From a bacterium (lineage in GTDB: Bacteria; Auribacterota; UBA3054; JAAYZF01): DNA of 46,042 nt. Made by a program: the position numbers and the translations under genes. Each line of letters starts with the position of its first letter. Positions within the stretch are counted from its first letter, which is position 1. Shown piece after piece: positions 19,080-29,484 of this stretch. Location of the stretch: contig JAAYZF010000130.1 of NCBI GenBank assembly GCA_012514975.1, forward strand, positions 1-46,042, read 5' to 3'. Under the pieces are notes generated by a model, which saw nothing but the letters and a program-made list of their open reading frames with translations, was not told the origin of the DNA and did not search any database.

Positions 19080-21572
19080 TCACCGCATGCCCCGCGTCCA
19101 GTTCCGCCGCAACGCCGGCAGCAGGGCAAGAAGAAGCGCGACCCACACGGGTTCCGGCACAAGGATGACGTCGTTGCCCACCGGTTGCGTGCCTGTAGCG
19201 GCGCGATTGACGGGCACGCACTGGCTCATCCCGTCAGCGTGGATCATCACGTGGTCGCACCCCCCGGGCACGCGCACGGAGAAGAAGCCTGAACGGCTGA
19301 GGGCGCCCAGCACAAGGCTGTCCGTTCCCGCGGCGCGGGCCGCGCGGGCCGCGACAGGCGCCTCGATGACGCCGTCCGCCGGCGCCGTGCCGCTGACGGC
19401 CGAGACAACCGAGCCGCAGAGGTACACCTCGCCGCCGTCGATGAACACGTCGGCCATGCCGCCATCCGCCGTGTTGGTCAGCACCGTTGTCGTCGAACGA
19501 TACCCATCGGCCTCGGCGACGAGCACATGGGTCGGTGCGCCTGGCGCATCGGTCTCGGGCGGCGGGAGGGCGGTGAAGGCGAAGATGCCGTTGGCATCGG
19601 CGATCGCCTGCCGGGCGCCGAACCAGACGCGCGCGCCTGCGACGGGCACGTGCGCGCCGCGCGAGCGAACGGTGCCGGAGAGGGCCACCGTGGCATTGGT
19701 CTGGCGGAGCGTATGGACGTCGGTCAGGACAGTGTGATTGATCTGTGCGGGTGTCCTGCGGACGCAACGGGACGTCCAGCCGTCTTTCATGAACACGAGG
19801 TAGTGGCTGCCTTCTTCAGCCTCATCGACCGGCCATGCCTTGGGTATGCGGCCGAACGAGTATCCGCCCGCCTCGTTGCATTCCGCCGCGATGCGCGCGC
19901 CGCGAATCAGCAGGATGACGGAGGCGCCGGGGACGCCGCTTGACATCTTCGCCGCGTCAACCAGCCAGCCGCCGTAGGCGTACGTGGTCACCGGAAAGAG
20001 GAACGGGTAATGCACGCCCGACGTGGTGCTCGCTGATGTCGAGAAGTAGTAGTTCGACAGCTCGTGCTCCTGGAGGTTCACGGTGCGCTGGAGCTGCACG
20101 GAGCAGAGCGCGCCCGTGGGCCGGTCGAGGTGCAGCCAGCCGTCGCCATCCGAGCGTGTCGCCAGCGTGTCGTCGGGCGCGCCAAAGGCGTTGGTGTTGC
20201 CTGGATAGCCGGCGGTGGCATACGCGCCCCAGACGGGCAGAGGCGCCTGGAAGCCTTCGGCCATGGCGGCGCCGCGGATGCCGGGAACAGTGATCGCCAC
20301 CGTGGCCGGCGCGCTGCGGTGCCGGCCGTTGTTGGCAATGACGGAGAAGCGATAGACTCCGGGCACGGCAAGCGGCCCGAGCGCGAGCTCGCTGTTCGTG
20401 GCGGCTGCGGGCGCGGGAATGACCGACAGCGGGTTTTCAGGGCTTTCATGCCATTCGACAGCAAGCGGCCCGGGACCGGCGTCAGGATCTGACGGCAACG
20501 CGCGAAGGCTGACATCGTGCATGGGCATGCGATGTGCATCAAACGACTGGCCGGGCGCCCATGCGCTCCATGCGCCGTTGGTCCGCCAGGCGGCCAGCAC
20601 GGCCGGCGGCTGGTTCGAGACAATCAACCCGGCGACAGCCTGCGCGCTGAGCGGCGCGTTGAACGTGCCTTCAGCCCCTGTCCACGTGTCGGAGACAATG
20701 CAGACGATGTAGCTGTCATGCGTCTCGGCGAAGACGAACGTTGCCGTCGGCGACGCGCTTGCCGGGGTAAACGGCCCGTCGGGCGGGTTGAACTGCCAGG
20801 AGAAGACGAACTGCTCCTGCGGATTTGGGTCGGACGCAGTTGCCCAGACCGTCACCGTGCCGCCGGGCGTGACGAGGTACGGGCCGTTCGCGTTCACACG
20901 CGGCGGCGAGTTCCACACCTGGAAACGGCGCCATGTGTCGATGCTGGTGCGCCCATGCTCATCCTTTGAGACGAGGGACAAGTCGATGTCGGCAGGTTCC
21001 TTGAAGGTCGTGTGTGCGGAAGGGCCCGTACCGAGGGCCTGGGACTCCGGAGGCGCCGAGTCGTTGTAGTTCGTCACCCAGTACAGCGTGCCGCCCCACC
21101 CGGCGCTGAGCCGCGCGTCCAGGTGGTACGGCAGGCCGGCGAATGCGCGCGGCGCGCCGCTTATGACGGGATGGAGCGTGGCGACACCCTCGACAACGGC
21201 GGCCACGACGAACGATGTCTCTGACACTCCGCCGCCGGCAACGATCACCATGCCTGTGTACGTGCCAAGCGCCGCCAGCACATCGCGCCGGATGGTCACG
21301 GGCACGGTGTTCGGCGCCGTGCCGAGCACGATGCCGTTTGTCGCTTCGAGCACGAACCATGGCGCGGCCGCGCCGAACGCCGCCGACGCGTTCCACGCAA
21401 TGCCGGTCGGGGACGGCGTGGTGACCGTGCACGCGCTGGTGAGATTGCTGACGCCGGCGTCGATGAGCGGCGGGAGGAGACTGAGCTTGCCCGCCGCGGC
21501 CGTGCGGGAGACGGCCCAGACTGCCATCGGCAGCAGGGCGGCACGCAGGATGTGTATGCGGATTCGTTTCAT
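19080..21572 (-). CDS. PEP-CTERM surface protein (shorter paralogue)
   Basis: An 830-residue exported protein from the ATG at 21572, one base after the CHAT gene stop. Seen: an N-terminal signal peptide (MKRIRIHILRAALLPMAVWA), Ig- or PKD-like beta repeats with NGPYLVTPGGTVTVWA, two or three carboxypeptidase-regulatory-like modules (SGTVRSRGAHVPVAGARVWF), and a C-terminal sorting tail VPEPVWVALLLALLPALRR: VPEP motif, hydrophobic helix, arginines. PEP-CTERM proteins are processed by an exosortase, which is not in this window, and then displayed or released. The C-terminal half is recognisably homologous to that of the 25017-28022 protein (VPG..G...EGF..PLPVWG; GGEV.L.G). The most distal gene of the cassette. 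Confidence 0.85.
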   Translation of the reverse strand: MKRIRIHILRAALLPMAVWAVSRTAAAGKLSLLPPLIDAGVSNLTSACTVTTPSPTGIAWNASAAFGAAAPWFVLEATNGIVLGTAPNTVPVTIRRDVLAALGTYTGMVIVAGGGVSETSFVVAAVVEGVATLHPVISGAPRAFAGLPYHLDARLSAGWGGTLYWVTNYNDSAPPESQALGTGPSAHTTFKEPADIDLSLVSKDEHGRTSIDTWRRFQVWNSPPRVNANGPYLVTPGGTVTVWATASDPNPQEQFVFSWQFNPPDGPFTPASASPTATFVFAETHDSYIVCIVSDTWTGAEGTFNAPLSAQAVAGLIVSNQPPAVLAAWRTNGAWSAWAPGQSFDAHRMPMHDVSLRALPSDPDAGPGPLAVEWHESPENPLSVIPAPAAATNSELALGPLAVPGVYRFSVIANNGRHRSAPATVAITVPGIRGAAMAEGFQAPLPVWGAYATAGYPGNTNAFGAPDDTLATRSDGDGWLHLDRPTGALCSVQLQRTVNLQEHELSNYYFSTSASTTSGVHYPFLFPVTTYAYGGWLVDAAKMSSGVPGASVILLIRGARIAAECNEAGGYSFGRIPKAWPVDEAEEGSHYLVFMKDGWTSRCVRRTPAQINHTVLTDVHTLRQTNATVALSGTVRSRGAHVPVAGARVWFGARQAIADANGIFAFTALPPPETDAPGAPTHVLVAEADGYRSTTTVLTNTADGGMADVFIDGGEVYLCGSVVSAVSGTAPADGVIEAPVAARAARAAGTDSLVLGALSRSGFFSVRVPGGCDHVMIHADGMSQCVPVNRAATGTQPVGNDVILVPEPVWVALLLALLPALRRNWTRGMR

Positions 21573-21573
21573 G

Positions 21574-24500
21574 TCAACGCCATTCCCCAAGGAGAACGAA
21601 GCCGGCCCAGAACGCCGGATGGGTGAACCGCCTGTCGGACCTGAGGGCGCGTTTCGCCTGGTTGAGCGCCGCAAGCGTGTTGGTCGCGCCAAGTCCGGCG
21701 TAATACTCGCGGACGAGAGTGGTGGTGCTGGCATCCTCGAGGTTCCACAGCGCGGCCGTCACGCGCGTCGTGCCGGCATGGAAGAAGGCGCGCGCAAGTG
21801 CCGAGATGCCGTGCGCGTACTCGCGCTGGTCAACATAGCCGGTGAAGCAGGCTGAGAGGGTGACCATGTCGGCATTCATGCGCAGGCCCATGATCTCGCG
21901 CGCGGCGAGGAAGCCGTCATCGCTGTCGTCGCCGTAGAGCGAGAGCACGAGGCAGGGCTCCGGGATGCCGCGCACGTCGCCGGGCAGCAGCGCGTGCGTG
22001 GCGAAATGGACATAGCGGTTGCTGAGCAGCGCGCCGGTGGCGCTCAACGACTTCAGTGCGCTTTCGCGCGCGTCAGCGCCGACGAAGACGCTGACCGGCG
22101 TTCTGCGCGTCCGCAGCAGGCCGGCGATGCCCTCCACTTCCCTCCGCGACGACGGCAGCGGCACGATCAGCGTCAGTTCCTTGTCAGGGATGAACATGGC
22201 CGCGGGATCCGCGCCGCGCATGCGCAGGCCCGAGCGCATCGCGAGAGGCGCGAGCGCGCCTTCGCCGCCGGCGCCTGTGCCGGCGTACTGGCGCGGCGTC
22301 ACCACGGGGTCGCCGAACAGGACCGCGCCCGTGCCCGAGTGCGCAGCAGTGATGCGCGCCTCATCGTTTTCCCGTATCTGGCGCAGCACACGGGCCGATG
22401 GCACGTACGCAACGGGCACTGAGTCGCCCAGGTAGTCGAGCGCGGCGAACGTGGCGCCTGTGCGCGAGCGGAGGAGCGCGTCAAAGGGGATGGTGGCCAG
22501 GCAATCGTGCGGGATGACGTAGACAGCCGTGCACTTCGAGAGATCGCGGCCGGCAAGAAGCGGCGCCACGACATCGGCATACAATCCGGCGGCGCACTGG
22601 ACGTACGCGTTCATTGGCGCCGTGGTTGCGCCAGGTGTCAGCACGTCGCGGAACGCGGCCACGCGCCGGCGCAGCGCAGCCCGGCCAGGTGCGAGGGCAT
22701 GGAAGCGTGCTTCGTCCTTCGTGATCGCGCAGGCGTAGAGGCCGTTCTGCCCAACCCAATAGCAGAGCGCAAGCTCGCCGGGCGCCAGCACTGTGCTCTG
22801 AAACGCGGCGAGGTCGAGCCGGGCAGGCTGGCAGAGCGATGCATAGCGCGGATAGCGCACCGCGAACTCGGCACGGAGTGCCCGCAACTGCGCGCGGAGC
22901 GGCGCAAGGGCGAGTTCCGCCTGCGTGGCATCGAGTGCGGCGCCCGGCGCATCACCGCGCAGGGCGGTCGCGTCCTTCCTCGCCTCGAGCAGGTGTGTCT
23001 CGCCGTCGAGGCTGGCGAGTCTCCCGGCATCAGCGCGGGAGAGGCCTGCGCGCTGGGCAGCATCGAGGTCCACCAGCTCATCGAGCATCTCCCGCGCGCG
23101 CGCAGTTTCCATCGCGGCAAAGGCGAGCGCGGCGTCCGCGGACGGCGCGGCGCGGCGCGGCCGCCGCGCGGCAACGGCGGCCAGCGTGTCCGCACACAAC
23201 GTCTCCATGTCCGCGTTCATCCGCTCGCGCAACGCCGCCGGGCCGGCCGCGGCGAATGCGCCGTCAAGCACGCGCAACGCGCGGACGTACAGGGCGACCG
23301 CATGGCCGGTGTTGCCCTTGCGCGCCGCGCATGCAGCCACGCGCGCAAGTGCGTCCGCCGTGTCCGGGTGGAGTGGCCCGAGCGCCGCTCCGCGGATGTG
23401 GAGCGCTTCTTTGTACGCCTGTTCCGCAAGGTGTTTGCTTCCCTGCAGCAGGAAGGCATCACCCAGGCACTGAATGGTCGCCGCGACATCGGGATGGCGC
23501 GGGCCAAGGACACGTTCCTGCAAGGCGCGCGCCCGGAGGGCAAGGGCGCTGCCGGCCGCGCCGTTGCTCAGCGCGCACTGCACAGCCGCCATGCGGCAGA
23601 GCACGCGCGCCACGGCGGGGTGGTTCGTACCGAGCGACGCCTCGAGGATGGCCAGTGCCGCTTCATGCTCCCGCGCCGCGTCCGCGTAACGCCCCTGATC
23701 CTCGTACAGCCGGGCGAGGCTGCCGCGCGATTCGCCGACGGCGCGATGGGCGGGCCCGAACACGTGTGTCCGGATGGCCAGCGCCCGCAGGTACAATGTT
23801 TCCGCCTCGGCGTACTTCCCCTGCCGGCGGCAGAATGCGGCGAAATCGTTGAGCGTCGAGGCAACGGCGGGGTGATTGCTGCCGTGCGCCTGCTCGCACG
23901 CCTGAACTGCGACGGCATACTGGTCTTCAGCGTCGGCATAGCGGCCCAGGGCCGCGTATACGCCGGCGAGATTGCGCGACACGGTGGCCACGCGCGGATG
24001 CCGCGGCCCGAGCGTGTTCGTGTAGACATCAAGCGCCTCAAGGTACAAGCGGAGCGCCTCATCATACCTGCCGCCGTCGTGGCACAGGACCGCCATGTCG
24101 TTGATCGTCGCCGCGGTGTCCAGGTCGCGGCCGCCGAGGTGCTCGCGGCGCAGCGACAGCGCGCGGCCGTACTCCGTGCGCGCTGGCGCATAGTGCCCCG
24201 TGTCGGCGAGAAGGAAGGCCAGATTGTTCCGCAGGACGGCTTCGTCAAGGACGTTCGACCCGGCGGCGGCCGCGGAGATCCCTTCCAGAAACAGCCCTTC
24301 CGCAATGGCGTGGTTGCCCAGGATGCGTTCGATCTCGGCAAGATTGTTGATGGACTGGGCGACAAGCGCGCTCTCCGGCGGCAGTGCTGCGCGACGGATA
24401 TCGAGCGCGGCCCGATGGTGTCTCCGCGCGCGAGGGTATGCGCCCAAGTGGCGGCAGACTTCGCCAAGGTTGTTGAGGCACGTCGCCACGCGCAAGTCGT

Positions 24501-24978
24501 CCGCCAAACCCTCCGCGCGGTAGATCGCGGTGGCACGCTCGAGCAACGGCTCGGCCTCGGCATAGCGCCCCTGGTTGACGCGCAGCGAGGCAAGGTTGTT
24601 CAGCGCCTGCGCAACGCCCGGGTCCTCCGCGCCAGTCGCTTGCTCGCGCACACGGAGCACGCGCAGCAGCAGCGGCTCGGCCTCGGCATAGCGGTGCGTG
24701 AGCACGTACAGCGAACCGAGGATGTTGAGGCAGACCGCAGTGTTCGTGCCGTCGCCGCCGTAGAGCGCGGTGGCCGCTTCGACTGCGCGCTGTGCAGGCT
24801 CGATCGCCTCCTGGTAGCGCCCGGCGGCGAAGCAGGCGTTGACTTCGGTGTAGAGCTCGTCCAGCGCATCGGTCTCCGCCCCCGCCGCGCACAACGCGAG
24901 CATGCAGAGCGGCAGCGCGCGCTTCAGCCCTGCATGGAAGCCGCGCCGGCAGAGAAAAAGTACCCGGATGCGCGTCAT
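21574..24978 (-). CDS. Exported TPR-CHAT protein (caspase-like protease domain)
   Basis: An 1134-residue protein. Seen: a signal-peptide-like N-terminus (hydrophobic stretch LPLCMLALCAAGAE, about residues 22-35), then about a dozen TPR units of 42-residue spacing of the kinesin-light-chain type (repeated RYAEAEPLL...A...HP.VA..LNNLA), then a CHAT domain (about 740-1134). The catalytic pair is present: H995 in HFATHA and C1044 in LSACFTG. CHAT domains are caspase/separase-like cysteine peptidases. Most characterised bacterial ones are cytoplasmic; an exported one between two PEP-CTERM proteins is unusual and suggests that it trims surface proteins. That substrate is inference. Confidence 0.9.
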   Translation of the reverse strand: MTRIRVLFLCRRGFHAGLKRALPLCMLALCAAGAETDALDELYTEVNACFAAGRYQEAIEPAQRAVEAATALYGGDGTNTAVCLNILGSLYVLTHRYAEAEPLLLRVLRVREQATGAEDPGVAQALNNLASLRVNQGRYAEAEPLLERATAIYRAEGLADDLRVATCLNNLGEVCRHLGAYPRARRHHRAALDIRRAALPPESALVAQSINNLAEIERILGNHAIAEGLFLEGISAAAAGSNVLDEAVLRNNLAFLLADTGHYAPARTEYGRALSLRREHLGGRDLDTAATINDMAVLCHDGGRYDEALRLYLEALDVYTNTLGPRHPRVATVSRNLAGVYAALGRYADAEDQYAVAVQACEQAHGSNHPAVASTLNDFAAFCRRQGKYAEAETLYLRALAIRTHVFGPAHRAVGESRGSLARLYEDQGRYADAAREHEAALAILEASLGTNHPAVARVLCRMAAVQCALSNGAAGSALALRARALQERVLGPRHPDVAATIQCLGDAFLLQGSKHLAEQAYKEALHIRGAALGPLHPDTADALARVAACAARKGNTGHAVALYVRALRVLDGAFAAAGPAALRERMNADMETLCADTLAAVAARRPRRAAPSADAALAFAAMETARAREMLDELVDLDAAQRAGLSRADAGRLASLDGETHLLEARKDATALRGDAPGAALDATQAELALAPLRAQLRALRAEFAVRYPRYASLCQPARLDLAAFQSTVLAPGELALCYWVGQNGLYACAITKDEARFHALAPGRAALRRRVAAFRDVLTPGATTAPMNAYVQCAAGLYADVVAPLLAGRDLSKCTAVYVIPHDCLATIPFDALLRSRTGATFAALDYLGDSVPVAYVPSARVLRQIRENDEARITAAHSGTGAVLFGDPVVTPRQYAGTGAGGEGALAPLAMRSGLRMRGADPAAMFIPDKELTLIVPLPSSRREVEGIAGLLRTRRTPVSVFVGADARESALKSLSATGALLSNRYVHFATHALLPGDVRGIPEPCLVLSLYGDDSDDGFLAAREIMGLRMNADMVTLSACFTGYVDQREYAHGISALARAFFHAGTTRVTAALWNLEDASTTTLVREYYAGLGATNTLAALNQAKRALRSDRRFTHPAFWAGFVLLGEWR

Positions 24979-25016
24979 GATACCGTGAACGGTCGCGCGT
25001 GTTGCGCTGGACAGGT

Positions 25017-28000
25017 TCAGCGCCGGCAGCGCCGCAGACGCCTTAAGCCCGGCAGGCCAAGCGCCAGGCCGCCAAGCCAGCCGGCCGGCTCGGGAATCGG
25101 CAGGATGATGTCACGCTTCGTGTGGTCATTCACATCGACCGTCACCGTGACCGGCTCGAAATCAGGCGAGGAAACAACGTAGGAGCGTGTGCCTTTGGCA
25201 ACCATCACATCGTAGTAGCCTGCGCCCGAGGCGGCGGTACCCGGCACCGGCATCCGGCCGGCCGCCCACGCGCCGCGCACAGACGCCTGTACGCTGTCGA
25301 CCATTACCGATGCATTCGTGACCGGGATGCCGTTGATGTCGTAGATCTGCCCGTAGACACTCACTTCGCCGCCGTGGATCACGAGATCAAGATTCGTGGT
25401 GCCGGACAACAGGTTGATATCGCCCACCATCGTACGCGTGAACCCGTCCCTGGCCAGCACGACAAGATACTCCCCGTCCGGCACGGCCAGCGGGCCGAAC
25501 GTGCCGTCGCCTGCCGTCACCGCCGACCACCCATTGCCAAAGTCCACCGTCACGTCTGCCACGGGCAGCCCGGACAACTGGCCGCGGACAGTGCCATGCA
25601 CCTCCGCGTTCCCCGCCGACGGCTGGACAGCGATCACTTCGCTGTTCATGTTCATGTTCAGCCGCATGGCACGCACGACGCTGCGCCAGCCGGCCTTCTG
25701 CACACGGACAAGATACTCGTCTCCATCAAGCGGCCAGCTCTCCGGCACCATGCCGTAGCCGAACGCGCCGATGGCATCCGCCTGGACGGGCATGCCGTTG
25801 CCGATAAGCAGCTCCGTCTGCGCATAGGGCAGGCCGACGTACGCGGCAGGCGTGCCCGTAACGATCTGGCCGGCATAGATGTAGCAGGTTGGCAGCAGGT
25901 AGACGTTCTTCGAGTATCGCCCGCCGGGGTCAATATCGATTGTCACATTCTGCCGGTCAAAACGCCGTTTCAACTCGGCAACCTGCGGCCCGGCGCCGGC
26001 ATCAACCAGGAATGCTCCACTGCGGTCCGTGCGGCCCATGTGCGCGTTGCCGGTAAATGTGTTGGTCACCGTCACCTCGACGCCCCACAGGGGCACTCTG
26101 CCTGCAAAGCCCTCGCAGATGACTTGGCCATGCCATCCTGGCACGCGCACGACAAGCGTTGCAAGCGCACTCAGGTACTCCCCGTCGAAAACGGCCAGAT
26201 GGAACCTGTAAGTGCCAGGCTTGTTCAGCGGGTCTGTGGTGACAACCGGATCGTGGAGCCTGCCGGCGGGTATCGCGGGTTTCTGCGGATTGGCAACATC
26301 CTCCCGCCAGTCGAAATAGAGCACCGGATTCGGCTTCATGTCGGGATCGCTCGATGCGCTGCCGTCGAGCGTCACTGTGCAGCCCAGCCCCGGGAGATTT
26401 GTGCTGGCCGCTCCGGAGCCTGCAAGCACCGCGCGCGCCGCGGGTGGTGCGTTGGCCGGATCTATCAGTACGGTCGCCGTGTCCGAGCCGGCCGCGCCAT
26501 GCTGGTCGCGCACCTCGCACGCGGCAACGTAGCTGCCGGCAGCGGCATAGGTGTGTGCGATGACGAAGAGGTTCGACCACGGCGTATCCCAGACCGCGTC
26601 TCCGTCGAAGTTCCAGCGGCATTCATGCGTGTCATGGATGCCCGGGTCGGATACAAGCGCCGCCAGGAACGTGTTGGTGCCTGCGCGGCCGCTGTACGGC
26701 CCGCCAAGCTCGACCGTGGGCGCCACGTTGTACACCGTGAGCAGCGTGCTGTCGGAGGCGGTGTGCGGCGGGCTGTTGCTGTCGCGGACAGTCAGCGTAA
26801 CGTCGCAGACGCCTGCGTCGTATGTATCTGTATAGGTAAAGGCCGCGTTGCTGCTGTCGTAGGGCGTGGCGAAGCCGGCGCCCACTTCCCACCGGTACTG
26901 CAGGCCCTGCCCGAAGGAGCCGACCGCGGTAAACGCCGCAGGCGTTCCCTGGTCGACCACATACGGGCCATTTGCCTCCGCGCAGGCCAGGTTGCCCGCG
27001 GTCGCCTCGACCGTCGCCGTGATGACGATCTTTCCGCCTGTAGACGGCGTGATTGTCACAAAGCCCTCGTACGTGCCGGGAACGAGGGAAGAGCGGTTGG
27101 CAAGGAGGAGCACGCCCACGTTGTCCATGGCGACAGTGCCGCCCGGCGGCCACACGGAGAGCCACGATCCGCCCTGGCTGACGGCGGTGGTGAAGCCGTA
27201 TGAGCCGGCGCCCGCGTTGCCGCAATAGGCAAACCGCGTCGAGTGGTTCGTCGAGAAATCAAGATGCGTCGGCCAGACCGTCGGGACGGGAAGGGGGTCG
27301 GCGCCACTGTAGGCATCCAGGGCAACTTCCTCGGGCGTCAGCACCCGGTCCCAGATCTTCACCTCGTCTACTTGTCCTTGGAGATAGCCCCAGCCCCACG
27401 AATTGAAACCGCCGATTGTGACCTGTTCGTCGTTCGTGATGATCGTTGCCGTCGGCCAGTTGGTCTCCGCGCAGGCAAGCCCGTTGGTGTAGACAATTAA
27501 CGATAGAGGCGTCATGCAAACGGCGATATGGGTCCATGCGGTACGCCCTATGCGTGGTGCGTCTATCGAGTACTCAGAACTGCCGCTGCCGTTCGCTACC
27601 GCCACATAGATGCCGTTATCCGGAATCAGGTGAACGTACCATCCGGAAAAGCGGTTCAACCACTTGCCGAGCACCCGGTTCATGCCACTCGGAGCGTCGG
27701 AAGTCGGTGTCTTGAGCCAGAGGCTCACCGTTGCATTTGAGCTGCTGAACGCTTCATGGTGCGGCACTGATATGTAGTCGTCCAGCCCGTCGAAGCTGAA
27801 GCATCCGCCTTTTACGCCCGCCGGGCTCCACGTGGCGCCGAAGTTCGTGCCGGCATGCCCGTGGCCGGTCGCATCATGCACGGTTGACGACGGGGTGTCA
27901 AAAGGCCAATGTGCAATGAGCCCCTGCGACAGGTCCCCCTCCGCGCTCGCCGCGGCAAGAAGCCACACGCCAAGGCCTGTGACCGCACATGCCGTACCCC

Positions 28001-28022
28001 GCCCGCATCTGAGTATCCCCAT
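25017..28022 (-). CDS. Large PEP-CTERM surface protein with LamG, BACON/Ig-like and PKD domains
   Basis: A 1001-residue protein. The ATG at 28022 has GAGG five bases upstream and is preferred to 28046. Seen: a signal peptide; a LamG/concanavalin-like domain (about 35-240: LIAHWPFDTPSSTVHDATG, FDGLDDYISVPH, QVDEVKIWDRVLTPEEV); a BACON-like domain (WPTHLDFSTNHSTRFAY, GGSWLSVWPPGG); PKD repeats (ANGPYVVDQGTPAAFTAVGS, GGPYSGRAG); regulatory-like beta modules; and a C-terminal PEP-CTERM tail (PIPEPAGWLGGLALGLPGLRR). It is a likely saccharide- or surface-binding adhesin displayed through an exosortase system. CHAT follows after 38 bases. Its C-terminal half resembles that of the 19080-21572 protein. 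Confidence 0.87.
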   Translation of the reverse strand: MGILRCGRGTACAVTGLGVWLLAAASAEGDLSQGLIAHWPFDTPSSTVHDATGHGHAGTNFGATWSPAGVKGGCFSFDGLDDYISVPHHEAFSSSNATVSLWLKTPTSDAPSGMNRVLGKWLNRFSGWYVHLIPDNGIYVAVANGSGSSEYSIDAPRIGRTAWTHIAVCMTPLSLIVYTNGLACAETNWPTATIITNDEQVTIGGFNSWGWGYLQGQVDEVKIWDRVLTPEEVALDAYSGADPLPVPTVWPTHLDFSTNHSTRFAYCGNAGAGSYGFTTAVSQGGSWLSVWPPGGTVAMDNVGVLLLANRSSLVPGTYEGFVTITPSTGGKIVITATVEATAGNLACAEANGPYVVDQGTPAAFTAVGSFGQGLQYRWEVGAGFATPYDSSNAAFTYTDTYDAGVCDVTLTVRDSNSPPHTASDSTLLTVYNVAPTVELGGPYSGRAGTNTFLAALVSDPGIHDTHECRWNFDGDAVWDTPWSNLFVIAHTYAAAGSYVAACEVRDQHGAAGSDTATVLIDPANAPPAARAVLAGSGAASTNLPGLGCTVTLDGSASSDPDMKPNPVLYFDWREDVANPQKPAIPAGRLHDPVVTTDPLNKPGTYRFHLAVFDGEYLSALATLVVRVPGWHGQVICEGFAGRVPLWGVEVTVTNTFTGNAHMGRTDRSGAFLVDAGAGPQVAELKRRFDRQNVTIDIDPGGRYSKNVYLLPTCYIYAGQIVTGTPAAYVGLPYAQTELLIGNGMPVQADAIGAFGYGMVPESWPLDGDEYLVRVQKAGWRSVVRAMRLNMNMNSEVIAVQPSAGNAEVHGTVRGQLSGLPVADVTVDFGNGWSAVTAGDGTFGPLAVPDGEYLVVLARDGFTRTMVGDINLLSGTTNLDLVIHGGEVSVYGQIYDINGIPVTNASVMVDSVQASVRGAWAAGRMPVPGTAASGAGYYDVMVAKGTRSYVVSSPDFEPVTVTVDVNDHTKRDIILPIPEPAGWLGGLALGLPGLRRLRRCRR

Positions 28023-28133
28023 GGCAACCTCGTGTGTTGCGTACAAAACGGAACGGACGGCACGCGCTAATCAACGGTGCCGGCCGGCCTCCCTCGCGCA
28101 AACGTCATCGCTCACATATGCTGATCCAACTCG

Positions 28134-28640
28134 TCAGTTAACTGCGTCACCGGGTGACGCATTCGTTGCGCCTGCCGGTTCGTTCGTTTCCGTGCAAGGG
28201 GCATGCACACCGCGGAATACAAGCGGCGCAGTCTCGTCGCCCCTGTTGCTGCCCGGCCGCGCGTCCATGCCATGCCAGCATGCGAAATACAGCGCGGCCA
28301 TGCAAAGGCATGCGGCTGCTGCCACGGCCGCAATGCCCCATGGCCGCCTGATCGAGTGTATCACGCCCTGCGTTGCCAGAACCACCTGCTGGAACAGGGG
28401 AACCCGGGGAATCCCCAGCGAATCCGCCGGCGCAGCCTCAAGCGCCCGCACCAGCTCCGCCACGTCAGGACGGGCGCTGCACAGGGCCGCAAGGCGCTCT
28501 TCCTCGTCAGGCGTGCTGACGCCCTCGACATGCCGGCTGACGAGCAGATAATCGACTCCCTCGATGTGCGAGGCCGTTGCCCGTTCCCTGGCTGATGCAA
28601 AGAGCCTGTCAAGCCTGCTCTGTACCGTTTTGTCGTCCAT
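28134..28640 (-). CDS. Putative anti-sigma factor, single-pass membrane protein
   Basis: A 168-residue protein from the ATG at 28640. Seen: a cytoplasmic N-terminal half (about 1-95: DDKTVQSRLDRLFASARE, DYLLVSRHVEGVSTPDEEERL, a ratio of charged residues typical of sigma-binding domains), one membrane helix (about 111-132: WGIAAVAAAACLCMAALYF), and a short periplasmic tail. No ZAS (HxxxCxxC) zinc motif is present, so it is not a ZAS-type anti-sigma. It directly follows the sigma gene (81-base gap), the usual order. The role is inferred from position and topology. Confidence 0.7.
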   Translation of the reverse strand: MDDKTVQSRLDRLFASARERATASHIEGVDYLLVSRHVEGVSTPDEEERLAALCSARPDVAELVRALEAAPADSLGIPRVPLFQQVVLATQGVIHSIRRPWGIAAVAAAACLCMAALYFACWHGMDARPGSNRGDETAPLVFRGVHAPCTETNEPAGATNASPGDAVN

Positions 28641-28721
28641 GATCAACCTTCCTTGGCTGCTATATCCTCTCTCATAAGTATATACGCACGCCAAGGGGAT
28701 TTGGTGCACGAAACCGGCAGG

Positions 28722-29336
28722 TCAGTCTGTCAGACACCGCCGCAACTTCGCATGAACAGCCCTTAATTCACGGTTTATCTGGAGGCGGCTGCGCCGCAGA
28801 ATCGCGCCGATTTCGCCCTGGGTGAGCCGGTCATAGTGATATAGCTTCACGAGCAGCTTCTCATGGGAATCAAGACGGTCCAGCGCCGCCGCAAGTGCCC
28901 GCTCGTCCTCCGCAAGGCACACTTGCTCCGCCACCGACACCGTGAAGCCCTCGTCGGCGGCGATGCCGTGCGTCAGGGTGTCAGCAGGGCTGCCGAGAAG
29001 TGCGGGCCGGGCTGCGCGCCGACGCATCCGGTCGATGAGCATGTGGCGGAAGACCACGGAAAGAAAGGTCGTGAGACACACGCTGCCATCATACCGGCTG
29101 AGCACGCCGGCATCGCCGGGCGCGGCGCCCATGAGCCTGACGACGAAATCCGAGAACACGTCGTCCAGTTCCTCAGGGCAGTTGTGCTGCTGTGCAAGAA
29201 TGGCGCACATGGGGCGGACGCGGCGGAGCAGCGCCGTCCATGCCCGGTTGTCGCGGCGCACGCACGCCTTCGAGAGACGCAAGTCCTCGGGATGGCGAAC
29301 GGGGTGCGTCGCATGTTCACCGCTGCTCACACTCAT
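28722..29336 (-). CDS. ECF-type RNA polymerase sigma factor
   Basis: A 204-residue protein with AGGA eight bases before the ATG at 29336. Seen: sigma region 2 (about 20-110: LSKACVRRDNRAWTALLRRV, EELDDVFSDFVVRL, LTTFLSVVFRHMLIDRMRRR) and region 4 (about 145-204: LDRLDSHEKLLVKLYHYD, LTQGEIGAILRRSRLQINREL), with the regions 2 and 4 only that define ECF sigma factors. The linker is longer than in simple ECFs. Layout resembles the Rhodopirellula/Verrucomicrobium-type ECF group. It probably directs transcription of the downstream surface-protein genes and perhaps itself. Confidence 0.88.
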   Translation of the reverse strand: MSVSSGEHATHPVRHPEDLRLSKACVRRDNRAWTALLRRVRPMCAILAQQHNCPEELDDVFSDFVVRLMGAAPGDAGVLSRYDGSVCLTTFLSVVFRHMLIDRMRRRAARPALLGSPADTLTHGIAADEGFTVSVAEQVCLAEDERALAAALDRLDSHEKLLVKLYHYDRLTQGEIGAILRRSRLQINRELRAVHAKLRRCLTD

Positions 29337-29455: not shown

Positions 29456-29484
29456 ATGATAGCACTTTCGGCCGTGCACGTCAA
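29456..29484 (-). promoter_or_regulatory. Promoter of the ECF sigma operon
   Basis: On the minus strand: -35 TTGACG (29484-29479), 17-base spacer, -10 TATCAT (29461-29456). The predicted start near 29449 leaves a leader of about 113 bases before the sigma ATG. It looks like a housekeeping promoter, not an ECF-type one. Confidence 0.65.

Follow-up and report, generated by a model that had tools for sequence, protein, structure and literature searches.

An ECF sigma factor, a putative membrane anti-sigma factor and an exported-looking TPR-CHAT peptidase as the recurrent core of a five-gene bacterial cassette that may serve envelope signalling

As judged from sequence and gene order, the conserved core of the five-gene cassette located in the 46,042-nucleotide stretch of DNA analysed (the window) is predicted to comprise an ECF sigma factor, a membrane anti-sigma factor and an exported TPR-CHAT peptidase, rather than all five genes. 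We consider the chances to be evenly balanced that this core constitutes an envelope-facing signalling module in which the exported TPR-CHAT protein cuts the outer tail of the anti-sigma factor, so releasing the sigma factor. Of the roles suggested by an earlier sequence-only reading of the cassette, a sensing or signalling unit with an exported CHAT protein has emerged as the best reading: the link between sigma factor, anti-sigma factor and CHAT is real and, because it recurs elsewhere, more than a product of chance. However, the accompanying proposal that the five genes form one unit did not hold for a conserved unit, since a relative of the core (genome G009) is a triad devoid of PEP genes, while relatives of the two PEP-CTERM proteins, PEP1 and PEP2, occur without CHAT (contigs G000:C399 and G001:C338).

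All five open reading frames lie collinearly on the minus strand in the order sigma factor, protein in the anti-sigma position, PEP1, TPR-CHAT and PEP2, and re-examination of their positions and domains confirmed those originally assigned (Table 1). The cassette is flanked on one side by divergent rplY/pth genes, and on the other by tRNA-Leu (18966-18881) followed by tatA and tatC. A gap of 111 nt separates the anti-sigma gene from PEP1, and the gene for PEP2 begins, as previously recorded, a single base after the CHAT stop codon (TGA-C-ATG). The sequence-only reading had proposed a check of gene order in other genomes: the full five-gene order was absent from every other genome searched, the source genomes being draft MAGs with short contigs, whereas the sigma/anti-sigma/CHAT core recurred. 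Among the genes read (about 15 to 34 kb) no Cas-like genes, CRISPR array or Cas7-11/gRAMP were detected beside TPR-CHAT, and PADLOC returned no defence-system match except for one generic TPR hit.

Table 1. Principal features of the cassette, with positions given for the window.
Feature	Coordinates	Strand	Remarks
Sigma-70-like promoter TTGACG-17-TATCAT, TG ahead of -10, 5' of sigma gene	29456..29484	-	
ECF-type sigma factor, 204 aa, regions 2 and 4	28722..29336	-	TIGR02937 70.5 bits (cut-off 42.9), PF04545
Putative membrane anti-sigma factor, 191 aa, one TM, short disordered outer tail	28134..28709	-	Alternative ATG 28640
Anti-sigma transmembrane helix, ORF residues about 126-144	28278..28334	-	TM 2.28
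FRGV motif in extracytoplasmic tail, candidate cleavage site	28206..28217	-	[FL]RG[VA] in peptidase-linked relatives
PEP1, PEP-CTERM surface protein, LamG (Laminin_G_3) + PKD + CarboxypepD_reg	25017..28022	-	Start ATG 28022
Exported-looking TPR-CHAT peptidase	21574..24978	-	CHAT PF12770 155 bits (cut-off 24), TPR arrays
Catalytic His995 codon (HFATHA)	21994..21996	-	Invariant in six aligned sequences
Catalytic Cys1044 codon (LSACFTG)	21847..21849	-	Invariant in six aligned sequences
PEP2, PEP-CTERM protein, PEP1 paralogue (30% identity), weak CarboxypepD_reg only	19080..21572	-	Start ATG 21572

The His995/Cys1044 dyad of the peptidase proved to be intact, as had been claimed. Its N-terminus, KRALPLCMLALCAAGA, is signal-peptide-like as assessed by hydropathy rather than by SignalP, an outcome in keeping with the predicted export, and relatives of the protein have clear signal peptides. 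A structural model of the CHAT half found its best match in the Craspase TPR-CHAT structure 7y84 (Csx29; E 8e-9); HMMER gave no sequence match between the CHAT protein and the Craspase chains, and an identification with Csx29 by sequence was consequently discarded, although the fold agrees. To our knowledge, the CHAT peptidases of known role are cytoplasmic and serve in CRISPR defence.

Three CHAT genes are present in the window genome. At the locus of one of these, L035 (G000:C298, 7933-13677), and at that of its relative, L036 (G001:C403, 2-5522), the exported TPR-CHAT gene comes immediately after a gene pair encoding a membrane-bound histidine kinase and a regulator of the NtrC type, so that on sequence grounds this peptidase subfamily would have a second type of transducer as partner; PrsK/PrsR was considered as an identity for this pair and rejected on best scores that fell under the curated cut-offs.

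A search of 384 genomes placed the sigma factor in a small subfamily of which five members were found, those of the window, G009, G001:C491 and G000:C7 scoring 295-311 bits and the next sigma factor 82 bits, with the G004:C91 member present as a fragment. Four of the five were linked to a clan CD peptidase from one of two different families (CHAT and C14), and the linked gene thus appears to switch family yet remain a clan CD peptidase. Sigma-70-like promoters equivalent to that of the window lie 5' of the sigma relatives in G000:C7 (9/12) and G009 (12/12), and the suggestion of a unit under the control of this sigma factor consequently found no support. Nothing convincing as an ECF-type promoter was seen ahead of PEP1 in the 111-nt gap, which was inspected by eye without motif statistics. 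The idea of a single regulon is weakened both by the sigma-70-like promoter and by the failure to find relatives that carry the PEP genes as well.

The protein in the anti-sigma position gave no Pfam hit, and its single TM and lack of HxxxCxxC zinc ligands substantiate its earlier description as a non-ZAS single-pass membrane protein. An AF2 model built from five sequences (mean pLDDT 66) comprised a confident N-terminal helical domain (helices 3-69), a TM at 100-124 (counted from ATG 28640) and, thereafter, a disordered tail. Six of the eight PDB matches to this model were the anti-sigma factors RslA or RsiW, all with E>1, and hhalign comparison with distant zinc-finger anti-sigma factors aligned the right region weakly, with a probability of 7%; the protein is thus weakly assigned as an anti-sigma factor by sequence. 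The HxxxCxxC motif, absent from both the window and G009 proteins, is present at most distant ECF/CHAT loci, and the zf-HC2 model was passed only by the G000:C7 paralogue of the window protein. The anti-sigma family profile found no Csx30 chain among solved structures and no other convincing relative, and the candidacies of Csx30 and of other proteins of solved structure as homologues were accordingly dropped.

Inspection of the outer tails revealed FRGV in the window, LRGV in G009, LRGA in G001:C491 and FRGA in G004:C91, such that the motif [FL]RG[VA] occurs in all four peptidase-linked tails of the subfamily, with per-tail shuffle chances of 0.001-0.01, and is missing from the peptidase-less G000:C7 paralogue. 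As a candidate cleavage site the motif is a lead rather than proof, because it was spotted post hoc and the four tails are kin. Arg-specific cleavage is known elsewhere in clan CD, for example in separase and the metacaspases; we know of no requirement for Arg in Csx29. The tail at a distant exported-CHAT locus, L186, also contains LRGA.

In both PEP1 and PEP2 the C-terminal tail combines the PEP motif with a hydrophobic stretch and clustered Arg residues. Neither protein appeared in the TIGR02595 results, which extended to E 1; both pass a PEP/hydrophobic/basic rule that was passed by 25 of 1832 called ORFs, all in loci of the same phylum. The window genome encodes one exosortase (118.8 bits; cut-off 25.7) and dozens of other PEP-CTERM proteins. 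A PEP1 relative of 50% identity is carried by G001:C338, a 7.8-kb contig without CHAT or sigma factor. At L160 (G000:C399) PEP1-like and PEP2-like genes are adjacent without an intervening CHAT gene, one TAG lying within the frame of the latter, and at L039 (G001:C172) a PEP-CTERM gene precedes an exported TPR gene interrupted by the contig end. Compared in this way, the PEP-CTERM proteins look lineage-specific rather than a conserved element of the sigma/CHAT group.

The core arrangement was found again at L038 of G009, a genome from another family of the same order, and there consists of a sigma factor, a 161-aa membrane protein and a TPR-CHAT protein with a clear signal peptide, without any PEP-CTERM gene. 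Several LpoB-like lipoprotein genes were noted by eye 3' of the CHAT gene at this locus (G009:C2, 3305-5939). At L161 (G001:C491, 8029-11322) the ECF sigma gene is followed by one whose single polypeptide product joins an anti-sigma-like N-terminus to a TM, a caspase domain of family C14 (PF00656, 44.8 bits) and FG-GAP repeats, while at G004:C91 a frameshifted remnant survives together with a decayed caspase-like gene. The 9.5-kb contig G000:C7 bears sigma and anti-sigma genes and no peptidase; here (L159, 4399-9339) the close sigma paralogue and its zf-HC2 anti-sigma factor are followed by genes for a BamA-like protein and a lipoprotein, possibly as an outer-membrane stress regulon.

A domain-wide survey was based on a CHAT search over the 384 genomes, from which 80 loci were read from the top of the score-ordered list, and not at random, to give 75 full-length CHAT genes. 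Using an ECF profile built for the survey and a neighbour distance of up to 1.5 kb, an ECF sigma gene was located upstream on the same strand of 18 of these 75 genes, the other placements being downstream on the same strand (5), downstream on the opposite strand (4) and upstream on the opposite strand (0). Of 450 further genes in these loci, 18 had an ECF sigma gene in the equivalent upstream placement; in a mostly alphaproteobacterial set, none of 70 CHAT genes did. On the CHAT tree the ECF link was scattered, with 19 changes of which at least 11 were forced, and is therefore either recurrent or ancient and often lost; as read from gene context, the sigma/CHAT pairing is widespread. Export had initially been regarded as exceptional for a CHAT protein, but most of those sampled have a hydrophobic N-terminus by a crude rule, exported-looking proteins being in the majority (86 of 129) even without sigma neighbours. 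Across 17 loci, classified by hydropathy and by hand, exported CHAT proteins coincided with anti-sigma factors bearing a TM and cytoplasmic ones with TM-less counterparts (Spearman 0.84), a match that comes down to two independent changes in the CHAT phylogeny and is thus not independent evidence.

Individual loci in the survey displayed further arrangements. At L217 (G177:C120, 7896-12010) a distant ECF sigma gene is followed, 12 nt on, by a gene whose product unites two zinc-finger motifs, a TM (142-160) and TPR-CHAT in one chain, a fusion which places the peptidase on the outer side. Locus L191 encodes a sigma factor, a zinc-finger/TM anti-sigma factor, an exported CHAT protein and a 1498-aa exported protein that parallels the surface proteins of the window, and at L202 (G250:C253, 7146-17832) the whole sigma/anti-sigma/exported TPR-CHAT set is duplicated in tandem. 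Loci L042 (8608-13531) and L225 (5708-11099) each encode an ECF sigma factor, a zinc-finger protein and a cytoplasmic TPR-CHAT protein, followed by a subtilase, and at the distant loci L211 and L213 an exported CHAT gene lies directly after the sigma gene with no anti-sigma gene seen.

In the signalling module proposed above, the ECF sigma factor would be held at the membrane by the single-pass anti-sigma factor, while the exported TPR-CHAT protein would sense a ligand or damage via its kinesin-light-chain-like TPR array. Once activated, the peptidase would then cut the anti-sigma factor in its outer tail, which is short and disordered, probably at or near [FL]RG[VA], and the remaining stump would be finished by an intramembrane site 2 protease, thereby freeing the sigma factor; a site-2-type M50 peptidase is present (203 bits). 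PEP1 and PEP2 would be lineage-specific additions serving as monitored ligands or surface partners, or simply as co-expressed products. The genes, their domains, the catalytic dyad, the recurrent grouping of sigma factor, anti-sigma factor and peptidase, the fusions and the shared motif are direct observations, whereas we infer the localisation of the CHAT protein, the cutting and its site, the signal and the regulon of the module. In favour of cutting we count the G009 triad, the change of linked peptidase family within the sigma subfamily, the orientation bias of the survey, the fusions, the tail motif, the M50 peptidase and the fold match to Csx29, itself a protease acting on a sigma inhibitor. 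The 3 kb of PEP1 lying between the anti-sigma and CHAT genes in the window count against cutting, as do the lack of a visible anti-sigma gene at L211 and L213 and the weak assignment of the anti-sigma factor by sequence.

An opposite assignment of roles would make the peptidase an output, controlled by the sigma factor as an exported effector, such as an envelope suicide or defence peptidase, with the anti-sigma factor regulated by other means. ECF sigma factors often regulate neighbouring genes, and the TPR-CHAT genes behind the histidine kinase/NtrC pairs of C298 and G001:C403 occupy an output-like position; we nevertheless judge this explanation unlikely, if far from negligible, as PADLOC gave no defence match beyond the generic TPR hit and the fusions of peptidase and anti-sigma factor at L217 and G001:C491 are difficult to reconcile with a peptidase that is purely an output. 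It is because these fusions place the peptidase outside, on the anti-sigma polypeptide itself, that an input role in anti-sigma cutting is preferred.

The location of the CHAT gene between two paralogous PEP-CTERM genes, with the TGA-C-ATG junction, could instead indicate that the peptidase matures or sheds both flanking proteins and that the sigma factor turns the set on, an arrangement to which the PEP-CTERM gene ahead of the exported TPR gene at L039 would also conform. Such surface processing is improbable given that the G009 triad manages without PEP-CTERM proteins, that relatives of PEP1 and PEP2 have no CHAT gene nearby, and that in a genome with dozens of PEP-CTERM proteins and one exosortase a dedicated processor would be unnecessary. 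There is, finally, a very slight prospect that the sigma and anti-sigma genes, with their own promoter and the 111-nt gap beyond them, and the PEP1-CHAT-PEP2 genes are two independent units in a chance neighbourhood, a view countered by recurrence in G009, by recurrence across phyla with an orientation bias, and by the fusions.

The preferred reading, signalling through anti-sigma cutting, has precedents, and although no name had been known for such a system, three related ones have been described. In Craspase, part of type III-E CRISPR, the TPR-CHAT protein Csx29 cuts Csx30, an inhibitor of the ECF sigma factor CASP-sigma (PMC10028731). In the window, too, a TPR-CHAT peptidase is encoded together with an ECF sigma factor and a putative inhibitor of it, and Csx29 was the closest match to the modelled fold of the CHAT half; however, Craspase is cytoplasmic and RNA-activated, whereas the window peptidase has a signal-peptide-like N-terminus, the putative inhibitor spans the membrane and no CRISPR genes were seen alongside. 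The same logic of protease, anti-sigma factor and ECF sigma factor applies to CalpL, which cuts CalpT to free CalpS (PMC11417357), but CalpL is a Lon-SAVED protease, activated by cyclic oligoadenylate, in a type III CRISPR system. ECF54 sigma factors have CHAT, subtilase and carboxypeptidase-domain proteins in their gene context (PMC8999054), a context resembling the CHAT gene near the window sigma factor, the subtilases of L042 and L225, and the CarboxypepD_reg domains of PEP1 and PEP2; unlike the window, with its putative membrane anti-sigma factor, they are described without one, proteolysis being proposed to control the sigma factor itself (PMC8999054).

Successive cutting of a membrane anti-sigma factor outside and then within the membrane, as proposed here, would resemble DegS/RseA/RpoE and RsiW-type proteolysis, in which the site-1 protease is DegS (a PDZ serine protease) or another enzyme not of the caspase fold. 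With PEP-CTERM/exosortase systems the cassette shares its two PEP-CTERM proteins and the exosortase of its genome, but these proteins are not conserved within the sigma/CHAT group. The sigma/anti-sigma/CHAT logic is already known in the cytoplasm and exported CHAT proteins are common, so export as such is not the novelty; a literature search, mostly of open papers, yielded no description of an exported CHAT protein acting with an anti-sigma factor.

By extension, the window may exemplify a widespread, unnamed class of signalling across the membrane, whose ECF anti-sigma factors are cut at site 1, after the Arg of the [FL]RG[VA] tail motif, by an exported peptidase of the caspase fold, be it CHAT or a C14 enzyme that has taken its place. 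This would amount to caspase-triggered intramembrane proteolysis in bacteria, with Craspase as its CRISPR-captured cytoplasmic counterpart, and we offer it tentatively, as a possibility more likely to fail than to hold. Both the RG motif and the natural fusions offer ready ways of testing the cutting idea. If it is correct, the exported TPR-CHAT proteins, a very large family so far without explanation, would gain a function, caspase-like enzymes would take their place beside proteases of the DegS type in sensing at the envelope, and the odd sigma arm of Craspase would acquire an evolutionary context.
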